Of a stretch of 64,000 bases of DNA, positions 57,791 through 61,107 are shown piece after piece. Source of the DNA: Bdellovibrio bacteriovorus (lineage in GTDB: Bacteria > Bdellovibrionota > Bdellovibrionia > Bdellovibrionales > Bdellovibrionaceae); assembly GCF_001592755.1 (NCBI RefSeq), contig NZ_LUKF01000016.1:248001-312000 (forward strand). The letters run 5' to 3'. The first letter of the stretch is position 1; the number at the start of each line of letters is the position of its first letter. The position numbers and the translations under genes were made by a program. The notes beneath the pieces were generated by a model. The model was not told where the DNA came from, made no database searches, and was given only the letters and a program-made list of their open reading frames with translations.

Positions 57791-58500
57791 GCTGATTTCC
57801 TCATTTCAGAAAGCTTTTTCCACTGTAAAACAAAGTTCCCGATATTATTGGCACCGACCCAAGCGCCCGAGTGACGAGCCTTCGCAAAGAAATCCAAAGC
57901 CAGGTTCGAGCTGGTCAGCTGTTCTTTTTCACAAAGAAACAAGTTTAATCCCACCACTTTCGGAAGCTCCCAAGGACTGACAATTTCACCCAAACATTTT
58001 TCATCCGTGTGAGAGCACCAAAGCACTTCGGCACCGCTGTCTTTTTGAATATCTTCTAAAGATTTCTGAATTGGAGAATACGACTCTAGACTGCGATTCC
58101 AATGCAGATAAATTTTATCCTCTGGCAAATTCTTCCAACGCAGAAGAAGATCCGAAATATTTTTGTAGTTTTCTTCGGTCACGGCCATGACCGGAACTCC
58201 TTTAGGCATTTGCACGATCGACAAGAAAGAATCAAGTCCTGCAAAAGCGCCATTCACTGCAACACCGAAGACAGGCTTTGCCGTCAAAGAAGCAACAACA
58301 CCTGGCAGGTGCGCTGCCAACCCCGCGCCGGCGACAAATACATCTGCACCACAAGTCGTAACAATTTCGCGTACGCGGTCGGGATGACGATGGGCCGAAG
58401 CCACTTCCATTTTTACTTCACCGCATTTTTCCAAAGAGTGACACAAAGGACCAAAGACTCTTTCATCACTCGCACTGCCGAACATAACCTGAATTTTCAT
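57781..58500 (-). CDS. purE: PurE-type AIR carboxylase/mutase with C-terminal extension
   Basis: A 239-residue PurE. The core (about residues 1-150) has the phosphate loop FGSASDERVFGPL, the SAHRHPDRV catalytic histidine region, GAGLAAHLPGVVASLTAKPV and GLDSFLSIVQMPKGVPVMAV. About 85 further residues follow with Trp/Cys/His (EVLWCSHTDEKCLGEIVSPW), not found in ordinary 160-residue PurE. No purK is in the operon, so whether it uses N5-CAIR or free CO2 with AIR cannot be decided. It overlaps purF by 4 bp. Confidence 0.9.
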   Translation of the reverse strand: MKIQVMFGSASDERVFGPLCHSLEKCGEVKMEVASAHRHPDRVREIVTTCGADVFVAGAGLAAHLPGVVASLTAKPVFGVAVNGAFAGLDSFLSIVQMPKGVPVMAVTEENYKNISDLLLRWKNLPEDKIYLHWNRSLESYSPIQKSLEDIQKDSGAEVLWCSHTDEKCLGEIVSPWELPKVVGLNLFLCEKEQLTSSNLALDFFAKARHSGAWVGANNIGNFVLQWKKLSEMRKSAWN

Positions 58501-59954
58501 AAAGGCACCTCGCTTTTACCATCTCCACCAATATTGTGATGTCTTGTTTTCAAAAATTTTTCTGTAGCCACAGGAACAGGATAATCTCCGTCAAGGCAGG
58601 CACTGCACAGATTGGAAAGCCCCAAGCCTTCTTGCAGACGTTGCAATGGGAGGAACACCAGTCCATCAACTTCTAAGACCTTGGCGATTTCATCTTCGGA
58701 TTTTTTATGAGCCACTAAGGACTCTCCGTCGGGAAAATCAATTCCGTAAAAACACGGGTGACGAATCGGTGGACACGTGCTGGCAAGGTACACTTTTTCC
58801 GCGCCGGCTTCGCGCAAAAGACGGATGATACGAGCCGAAGTCGTTCCGCGCACGATACTGTCGTCAACAAGAAGAATTTTCTTCCCGCGAATTTCGCTTT
58901 CTACCGGTGAAAGTTTTAAGTTCACCATCATCTTTCGAAGTTCCGGTTGGTTGACAATGAAACTTCGTTGAACGTAACGATTTTTGATAAGCACTTCGCG
59001 ATAAGGTTTTTCTAAAACTTCCGCTAAACGGCAGGCCGCCGCACGTGAGGTGTCAGGAACTGGCGCAACAACATCCACATCCAATCCCTTTTTTTGAACC
59101 TCTTCAGCCAAAATACGTCCTAAATTCAATCGGACTTCATAGACCGGCCGACCATGCCACTCGGTCTCGGAGCCGGCAAAATAAATCCATTCAAACATAC
59201 AAGGACGAGCTTTCTTTTCACTGAGAAGAAAAGAGTGCAGGTTTAAATCTTTATCGATAAAGACCAGCTCCCCCGGGCGCAGATCGCGAAAATACTCAAA
59301 GCCCAAACCAAAAAACACCTGTTTTTCAGAGGCAAAACAATAGCTGTACTTATCGCCGTTCTTTTTTCTTCCTAAAAGCAAAGGCCTGATCCCATGCGAA
59401 TCGCAAAACGCGAAGAGTCCCTGATCTGCCAGCATTCCAATGGCGCTGTACGCCCCTTGCACTTGCTGCAAAAGTTCTCGGATGGATTCAGATAAATTTT
59501 TTGCGAGTTCTCCGGTTTCTTTGCGTGAAGCCAGTCCAATCGCTGTCATATGCAGAAGAATTTCCAGATCGTTGCGGCTAAACGTCCAACGCAGCTTACG
59601 ATTGCGAAGATAGTCGACGACCTCGTCGTAATTTGTGACGTTCCCGTTGTGAATCATGCCGATTCCGTAGGGATAACTTAAAAACAAAGGCTGAAGATCC
59701 TCTTTATCAACGGTTCCAATCGTGGAATAGCGCGTATGCCCCAGAGCCATGGATCCTTTAAGTCGAAGCTGTCTTTCAGAAGTAAAAACGTCTTCAACTA
59801 AGCCTAAGTCTTTTTCGAGATGAAACTGAGAGCGCTCGAAATCATAACTTAGAATCCCCGCTGCATCTTGACCGCGATGTTGAAGAGCGAATAAAGCAGG
59901 ATACAGTTTTTGACCGGCTTTTTCTTCTCCAATCAGACCAACTACTCCACACAT
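58497..59954 (-). CDS. purF: Glutamine PRPP amidotransferase
   Basis: The first committed step of purine synthesis. It begins MCGVVGLIGEE, so the catalytic Cys2 becomes N-terminal after Met removal with no propeptide. The glutaminase domain has ALFALQHRGQDAAGIL and GHTRYSTIG. The PRPP loop is ILLVDDSIVRGTTSARI. Cysteines in CMFEWIYFA, HPCFYGIDFP and LCSACLDGDYP match the four Fe-S cluster ligands of the Bacillus-type enzyme. The length is 485 residues. It leads the purine operon. Confidence 0.97.
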   Translation of the reverse strand: MCGVVGLIGEEKAGQKLYPALFALQHRGQDAAGILSYDFERSQFHLEKDLGLVEDVFTSERQLRLKGSMALGHTRYSTIGTVDKEDLQPLFLSYPYGIGMIHNGNVTNYDEVVDYLRNRKLRWTFSRNDLEILLHMTAIGLASRKETGELAKNLSESIRELLQQVQGAYSAIGMLADQGLFAFCDSHGIRPLLLGRKKNGDKYSYCFASEKQVFFGLGFEYFRDLRPGELVFIDKDLNLHSFLLSEKKARPCMFEWIYFAGSETEWHGRPVYEVRLNLGRILAEEVQKKGLDVDVVAPVPDTSRAAACRLAEVLEKPYREVLIKNRYVQRSFIVNQPELRKMMVNLKLSPVESEIRGKKILLVDDSIVRGTTSARIIRLLREAGAEKVYLASTCPPIRHPCFYGIDFPDGESLVAHKKSEDEIAKVLEVDGLVFLPLQRLQEGLGLSNLCSACLDGDYPVPVATEKFLKTRHHNIGGDGKSEVPL

Positions 59955-59980
59955 GGATTAGGACTCCCCTTTAAAAAACA

Positions 59981-60007
59981 AAAACGGCGTCATAGAGACG
60001 CCGTTTT
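59981..60007 (-). terminator. Attenuator-like terminator just upstream of purF
   Basis: A perfect 11-bp stem AAAACGGCGTC/GACGCCGTTTT with a 5-nt loop, followed by TTTTTGTTTTTT, ends directly before the purF ribosome-binding site (GGGGAG). Read-through control of the purine operon is the simplest explanation. It could also simply end the antiporter message. Confidence 0.8.
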
Positions 60008-60010
60008 TAT

Positions 60011-60252
60011 TAAGATACGTATTCAAATTTTTTAGACACTTCGGGTATTCAGACACACGGAGGGTGTGGAGTCGGGATTTTTCCCCCGGACTGCCCCCTG
60101 ATGGAGGGCCATAGAGCGAATTTCTTAAGAACAGTCGCTGAGCCATACACTCTCTACTTGAAGATTTAAAATGGATGCCCAACGCTATCGACTGTGACAG
60201 AGTTCGGTCAAGAGCCCTAACACAATCCTGACAATTCAACACGCCCCGACAA
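60011..60252 (-). promoter_or_regulatory. purF leader region
   Basis: A 240-bp leader between the antiporter gene and the attenuator. On the message it contains several possible hairpins (CACACCCTCCGTGTG; CCGGGGG with CCCG; GCCCT with AGGGGGC). It also has a short open frame starting ATGGCTCAGCG and running through the terminator to a stop 4 bp before purF. It does not match the ZTP, purine, PRPP or ykkC consensus that I know. TTGACC at 60206-60211 may be a -35 box, but its -10 is poor. Confidence 0.4.
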
Positions 60253-61107
60253 TTAGGCACCTTTGCCAGAAGCATTTACTGCGGGTACAGCCATCAGCGC
60301 CGTCAATATTCCTAATAAAACCAGAGCCGCGAAAATATCTCCAGAGATGAGTTGGGCTTGATACGCGTACGATGCAGCCAATATTTCCATCGCCCCGCGA
60401 GCGTTGAGCAGAAAACTGAACTTTATCGCCTCAGAAGAATCTACTCCCGCAAAACGAGTGAAAATATAAGTTCCTACTAATTTTGAAGTTACGGCCGCTA
60501 CAAATATCAGTAAAAATGTTTTCAAAGAGAATAAACCGAGGATATCGATCTTCCATCCTAACACAATGAAAAACACGGGAGCCAAAATCCACATCTGCAC
60601 TGAAATTAAGTGCGTATCTCTTGGGAATTCTTTCCAACGTCCCAAAGCCATGCCAATGAAAAAAGCCAGCACCACCCAATGACTCATCAGCCATCCGACA
60701 ACATCTTCTTTGGGAAGAAGAAACGCCAACACCACCCAAGCCACGATGTCGCAAAGACTCGCTACCGTGATCGTTCGGCGAGAAAGACGCGAGCCGTACA
60801 AATTTCGTTCTTTCAAAATTTGAATTACGATGGGTAGCGCTGAAATCGAAAAGGCTATTGCCAAGAACCAGTTTCGCTCAAACAAGAAATAACCCGTAAA
60901 AAATGGAATGACGAAGCTTCCGATAAACGAAAGAGCGTAAAACCGCGCATCCTTGCGAAGATTGACAAACTGAAGTTCCCAACCGGCCAGAAAAAGAAAA
61001 CCGGCTCCAGCCACTTGCGCTAACTGGGGCATCCAAGAAGGCATCGTAATATCGGTGACGCCAGGCCCTAAGCACAAACCCAAAACAATCCAAATAATTA
61101 ACTTCAC
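60253..61107 (-). CDS. CPA2-type cation/proton antiporter (short)
   Basis: A 284-residue inner-membrane protein with about nine hydrophobic helices and the family motif FLLNARGAMEILAAS (Asn-Ala-Arg-Gly). The N-terminus begins directly at IIWIVLGLCLGPGV, so the usual first helix is partly missing; full members have about 380-400 residues. The helix motif for ion binding is seen around ASLCDIVAWVVLAFLL. The start is GTG with AAAGAG upstream. It likely exchanges Na+ or K+ for H+. No regulatory RCK domain is attached. It lies upstream of the purine operon in the same direction. Confidence 0.75.
   Translation of the reverse strand: MKLIIWIVLGLCLGPGVTDITMPSWMPQLAQVAGAGFLFLAGWELQFVNLRKDARFYALSFIGSFVIPFFTGYFLFERNWFLAIAFSISALPIVIQILKERNLYGSRLSRRTITVASLCDIVAWVVLAFLLPKEDVVGWLMSHWVVLAFFIGMALGRWKEFPRDTHLISVQMWILAPVFFIVLGWKIDILGLFSLKTFLLIFVAAVTSKLVGTYIFTRFAGVDSSEAIKFSFLLNARGAMEILAASYAYQAQLISGDIFAALVLLGILTALMAVPAVNASGKGA

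Follow-up and report, generated by a model that had tools for sequence, protein, structure and literature searches.

What decides whether RNA polymerase reaches the purine operon of Bdellovibrio bacteriovorus, when a predicted transcription terminator stands directly in front of purF, its first gene? A preliminary description of this locus, within a stretch of DNA of 64,000 nucleotides (here called the window), had left several answers side by side, namely a ribosome-mediated attenuator, a protein-mediated attenuator and a new class of riboswitch. We compared the leader of the operon with its counterparts in related genomes, and ran literature searches, whose listings showed no paper on attenuation of the Bdellovibrio purine operon. 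The purF leader is, in our assessment, probably a ribosome-coupled transcription attenuator of the pyrBI type, with the purine operon as its target.

Anatomy of the purF leader

The leader (60252..59955) is on the minus strand of the window, placed between a Na/H-exchanger-like gene (61107..60253) that is transcribed in the same direction and purF (59954..58497). Directly 3' of purF are purE and purC (Pfam AIRC and SAICAR synthetase), and the further genes past purC we take, from reading the sequence, to be purD, purN, purL, purQ, purH and purM. In the order of transcription, the features of the locus are:

60216..60233, minus strand: direct repeat TGTCAGG-N4-TGTTAGG with 11-bp spacing, 5' of the -35 element; putative Pho-type operator
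60184..60211, minus strand: predicted promoter, with -35 TTGACC, a 16-nt spacer and -10 GATAGC
60150..60155, minus strand: Shine-Dalgarno sequence AGAGAG of the leader ORF; a similar sequence is present in 19 of 20 leaders
59958..60146, minus strand: leader ORF of 62 codons plus stop, MAQRLFLRNSLY...NGVSMTPFLFFKGES, running through the terminator; open in 20 of 20 leaders
60008..60047, minus strand: A-rich, G-poor tract 5' of the hairpin; candidate polymerase pause region
59973..60008, minus strand: intrinsic terminator (the putative attenuator), with a 12-bp stem, a 5-nt loop and a T tract; present in 20 of 20 leaders
58497..59954, minus strand: purF, gene 1 of the purine operon (Pfam GATase and Pribosyltran)

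The 20 leaders come from a set of 24 genomes of the genus that we searched, 20 of which passed the threshold set for a PurF match. We aligned the regions upstream of purF in these genomes together with that of G076, a member of a sister genus, and each of the 20 leaders was read for ORFs and hairpins. The remaining genomes, G009, G010, G015 and G019, have no PurF match at E 1e-60, and the purF promoter box is also absent from the three of them searched for it (G010, G015 and G019). Purine synthesis has possibly been lost in these four, although two of the assemblies are only 88-90% complete.

The terminator hairpin (60008..59980) has the form AAAAACGGCGTC-loop-GACGCCGTTTTT, with 12 pairs and a predicted energy of -17.8 kcal/mol when folded alone. 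It is followed by a G and six T, with the purF ribosome-binding site directly after the T tract and 25 nt between the hairpin and the purF ATG. The terminator that had been described at this site is hence real, although its stem has 12 pairs by our count and not the 11 bp first given. Across the 20 leaders the terminator hairpins range from -12.1 to -17.8 kcal/mol, and the hairpin is expected to terminate transcription in the cell.

Comparison places the start of the leader ORF at the ATG at 60146, behind AGAGAG, and its stop at the TAA at 59960-59958; a mechanical ORF list gives a 105-codon version beginning at 60275. A single scan of the genus leaders recovered the terminator in all 20 and an ORF led by a Shine-Dalgarno sequence through it in 19, the ORF of G016 being without such a sequence. 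In this genome (locus L106) the ORF start is located a few nucleotides past the expected transcription start, and is perhaps a leaderless start.

Conservation of the leader ORF

The ORF varies from 45 to 82 codons among the 20 leaders and is open through the terminator in every one of them. The short ORF running through the terminator, noted earlier in the window alone, is thus a conserved property of the 20 genus genomes that carry purF, and this lends support to the ribosome-mediated option among those originally proposed. Its stop codon begins between -3 and -15 relative to the A of the purF start codon in 13 leaders and between +10 and +19 in the other seven; the position -6 is shared by six of the 20, the window included. 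Between the ORF start and purF, stops number 79 and 68 in the other two frames (1277 codons each) and four in the ORF frame (1289 codons). L109-L112 have one of these four each, and in each case it is the stop of the ORF itself, downstream of the hairpin. The distance from the ORF start to the terminator stem (GGCGTC) takes nine values in the 20 leaders, eight of which are multiples of three (the exception is G003), and therefore insertions and deletions appear to have kept the frame. Most listed pairs have a lower dN than dS, such as G000/G002 (0.128 versus 0.448), whereas among G005, G001 and G023 the two values are nearly the same. The sequence of the leader peptide differs strongly across the genus, and a search against Pfam yielded no family at the cut-off (the best, DUP, scored 14.5 of 23 bits). 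The open frame, the dN/dS values and the variable peptide, taken together, therefore suggest that translation through the hairpin has been kept under selection, with weaker selection acting on the peptide itself. The leader ORF is presumably translated.

A translated frame of this kind lends itself to other explanations. The leader could be a sensor of amino acids or of translation in general, in which a ribosome slowed by starvation, or by poor initiation on the leader ORF, would let the terminator form and turn purine synthesis off, with good translation keeping it on. The anatomy would be identical, and several leaders encode glutamine, a substrate of PurF, close to the hairpin (CQQNLN, CQQKKSN, CLQNL). 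However, glutamine codons are absent there in G000, G018, G008, G002, G013 and G014, among others, no run of a single amino acid is conserved in the 20 peptides as judged by eye, and the logic would be opposite to trp-type control. Likewise, the trp- and his-type leader peptide attenuators share with the purF leader a terminator controlled by the ribosome, but the purF leader has neither their regulatory codon run nor a conserved antiterminator, and its ORF continues through the terminator. We consider a sensor of amino acids or of translation unlikely. It is quite improbable that the ORF is instead a conserved gene for a small protein, cotranscribed with purF, with the terminator setting a fixed level of readthrough and no regulation: the dN/dS values agree with such a gene, and the spacing of stop and start would permit translational coupling to purF in many leaders, but the peptide varies strongly whereas the open frame across the hairpin is retained, and the Pfam search points to no known family.

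We also considered rare codons as a device for slowing the ribosome, and dropped the idea. The first 37 codons of the ORF score below all 652 windows from purine genes in codon use, but 866 of 2000 random sets of synonyms score as low or lower, and this score is also reached when synonyms are used equally. Unselected synonymous choice thus suffices to produce the ORF's poor codon use, which is no evidence for a ribosome slowed by design.

RNA structure, predicted promoter and putative operator

Comparative folding of the purF leaders, which had been suggested as a check, was run with RNAalifold on the 20 genus genomes. It gave nine pairs, every one of them within the terminator and intact in all 20 leaders; at two of them both partners have changed. 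The terminator is thus the sole RNA structure predicted to be conserved across the set. Several hairpins are indeed predicted in the window leader, as had been described, but the transcript leader that we predict measures ~223 nt upstream of purF, in place of the 240 nt first given. The whole window leader folds at -94.1 kcal/mol (z -2.8; two of 200 shuffles were as good). These predicted hairpins could be taken for a riboswitch or an attenuator bound by an RNA-binding protein, its aptamer lying somewhere within the initial 150 nt, and 11 closer relatives do show other small helices, in which five of 27 pairs are changed on both sides. However, other pairs of these upstream helices are broken, the covariation term is unfavourable (+0.37), and no pairs beyond the terminator are conserved in the 20 leaders. 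In G016, whose leader measures 149 nt, most of the upstream hairpins are missing.

Purine, PRPP and ppGpp riboswitches occur upstream of purine genes in other bacteria. The purF leader differs from them in having no conserved aptamer and no Rfam match at the gathering threshold, in accordance with the earlier remark that it fits no known riboswitch; a match of this type had been named in advance as a finding that would speak against a novel element, and none emerged. Six weak matches appear when E values up to 10 are admitted, the best being L20_leader with 21 bits against a cut-off of 58.7, and this lies on the terminator. An aptamer is very improbable, because the conserved fold consists of the terminator alone, no Rfam family exceeds its cut-off and G016 manages with a short leader. 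The new riboswitch class proposed earlier thus loses its ground, as does a protein-mediated RNA attenuator, for which the leaders offer no conserved structured RNA site, with protein control of leader translation being a possible alternative. As 6S RNA is linked to purine genes, it too was considered at the leader, and rejected: the 6S match of this genome is on another contig.

The predicted promoter has TTGAC at the corresponding site in 20 of 20 genus purF leaders, and its -10 hexamer is GATAGC in 12, GCTAGC in five and one of three other variants, found once each, in the rest. Transcription would be expected to start near 60177. The alignment shows the promoter, ORF and terminator kept while several relatives have unrelated sequence 5' of the promoter, and the route from the conserved promoter to purF leads solely through the hairpin. 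That the hairpin instead terminates the upstream gene, with the start for purF beyond it, can be dismissed as hardly credible: the upstream gene does run in the same direction in the window, but the hairpin is ~245 nt past that gene and also downstream of the conserved promoter, several relatives have an unrelated upstream sequence, and the 25 nt left to purF are too short for a separate promoter, so that the start downstream of the terminator raised earlier as a counter-argument is unlikely from the spacing.

Of the 20 genus purF promoters, 18 match TGTYAGGN4TGTYAGG exactly in the direct repeat upstream of the -35 element, and the other two deviate from it at one position. A related repeat, TGTTARG-N4-TGTTAG, is found upstream of phoU in all seven genomes looked at (for example, L141 and L209), and in the window's genome we read phoU as being followed by a PhoB-like gene. 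The resemblance of the purF repeat to the phoU repeat suggests that purF may be controlled by PhoB and belong to the Pho regulon. A longer pattern has a single match, at purF, in six of ten genomes, the four without it being three genus genomes that lack a PurF match and G076. The repeat pattern alone, with one mismatch allowed, gives 21 sites in four genomes versus 20 for a reversed control, and in the two genomes seen the region upstream of pstS is without such a repeat. In the centroid fold the conserved block 60240-60182 appears as an RNA stem-loop, a candidate that we set aside, since comparison reads it better as operator and promoter. By eye, G076 (L113), from the sister genus, has a long inverted repeat, GGTACCAGTTCCC...GGGAACTGGTACC, before purF.

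A further 61 loci comprise five genus members (L032-L036) and others, of which 25 were scanned. In these 25 loci from outside the genus, a hairpin within at most 200 nt of purF was found once and is weak, and no ORF led by a Shine-Dalgarno sequence was noted through a hairpin. Similarly, a hairpin scan of nine of the ten loci L113-L122 from the same family (L120 is partial) yielded a single weak hairpin, the ORF test having been run on the 25-locus set alone; L037 of the 25 appears to be the same contig as L113. The attenuator plan is thus seen in the genus Bdellovibrio and was not found in the 25 and nine outside loci scanned.

Candidate signal, related systems and pyrB

In enteric bacteria, the textbook account of pyrBI control rests on a terminator that lies within a leader ORF. 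Run on the Escherichia coli pyrBI region, the script that we used for the purF leader places the terminator at -50..-30, within pyrL, and the pyrL stop at -6; the corresponding values in the window are -54..-25 and -6. Hence, both systems combine a leader ORF that passes through an intrinsic terminator with a stop at -6 of the structural gene, and in both the operon begins with the first committed enzyme of a nucleotide pathway. They differ in that the purF leader precedes a purine and not a pyrimidine operon and has an A-rich in place of a U-rich tract, and in that its ORF has 45-82 codons, versus 44 in pyrL, and overlaps the purF start in seven of 20 leaders; we claim no sequence kinship between the two. 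The pyrBI terminator is described as being within a 135-bp leader gene (PMC4824070), and the account in PMC3641672 attributes pyrBI control to a U-rich stretch with UTP-dependent coupling. The latter source also describes mgtM, the leader ORF of Salmonella mgtCBR, which contains an adenine stretch and for which coupling of polymerase and ribosome is proposed to sense ATP (PMC3641672). The mgtM leader resembles the purF leader in having its adenine stretch inside a leader ORF, but differs in that its expression rises with high ATP and the outcome depends on alternative stem-loops; the purF leader has its terminator inside the ORF, and the opposite response to ATP would be expected.

Under the pyrBI-type reading, RNA polymerase would start ~223 nt upstream of purF, and a ribosome would initiate at once on the 62-codon leader ORF. 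Should this ribosome stay close behind the polymerase, it would cover the terminator region, no hairpin would form and the purF operon would be transcribed; should the polymerase outrun the ribosome, the hairpin would form and transcription would stop just before purF. The likely point of control would be the speed of the polymerase through the A-rich stretch before the hairpin. With low ATP, the polymerase would be slow, coupling tight and purF expressed, and with plentiful ATP, as during uptake of nucleotides from prey, termination would result.

The 40 nt before the hairpin have 44.5% A and 11% G in the 20 leaders, compared with 36.1% A and 18.0% G for control terminators in the sequences at hand (n=20). 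A larger control gave 34.8% A and 16.8% G (n=30), the A fractions being 0.433 for purF leaders versus 0.348 and the rank test P values 0.0003 for A and 0.007 for G, in a comparison whose related sequences are not independent and whose 30 other terminators include the opposite strands of purF hairpins as well as pyrB hairpins. A run of at least five A is present in 13 of the 18 purF leaders kept by the script versus 14 of the 30 other terminators, and an ORF passes through the hairpin in 17 of 18 versus six of 30, the six including three from pyrB and two on the opposite strand of purF. The A-richness before the hairpin is thus modestly above that of other terminators. Control terminators being A-rich as well, we rejected the tract as proof of ATP sensing and keep it as a lead. 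We name ATP tentatively as the nucleotide that may be sensed, and this step is weak because the tract exceeds other terminators only moderately in A; the codon use of the ORF lends it no further support.

A second, strong terminator in a coding sequence is found within pyrB. At 111-147 nt from the start, the pyrB genes of 22 of the 24 genus genomes contain a hairpin of 10-13 bp with a T tract behind it, a few of the stems having one mismatch; pyrB of G003 has a weaker, altered hairpin and that of G016 none.

L155 (G000:C14:288774-289676), nt 117-143 after the ATG: terminator inside pyrB; also in L156-L175 and L180

When degenerate codons with a conserved amino acid are considered, retention of a single codon averages 0.90 for the 11 in the hairpin and T tract, versus 0.58 for the other 151. 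Among four-fold degenerate codons, none of the 54 elsewhere in pyrB reaches 0.95, and three of the five in the hairpin do, the free one being in the loop. The genus pyrB promoters share the style of the purF promoter, with TTGACA...TAGGCT, and from the predicted start would leave ~8 nt before the ATG. The pyrB terminator is likely a second translation-coupled attenuator, with its leader fused into the gene, and its presence in a translated sequence of the same genus counts as support for the coupling reading of purF. No terminator was found near the starts of guaB and purA in ten of ten loci. Outside the genus, G035 (L179) and G024 (L181) have hairpins with T-rich tails at a similar place in pyrB, these being two of the six outside-genus loci listed, a sample too small for a judgement.

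The two systems may be joined in a wider reading, which we regard as rather doubtful, wherein the purF leader ORF would read ATP, the first ~40 codons of pyrB would be its own leader, and coupling would control the first committed step of both pathways. A terminator in the pyrB coding sequence, held in place by synonymous codons, would then achieve such control in less space. The same plan as in pyrBI, set in an unrelated sequence before the purine operon of a predatory bacterium, would show that the coupling of ribosome and polymerase can gauge purines. It would also show that such coupling operates in Bdellovibrio, whose growth depends on prey nucleotides and where it is directly testable; and if the joint reading of purF and pyrB is true, de novo nucleotide synthesis in these bacteria would be tuned to the nucleotides released from their prey.
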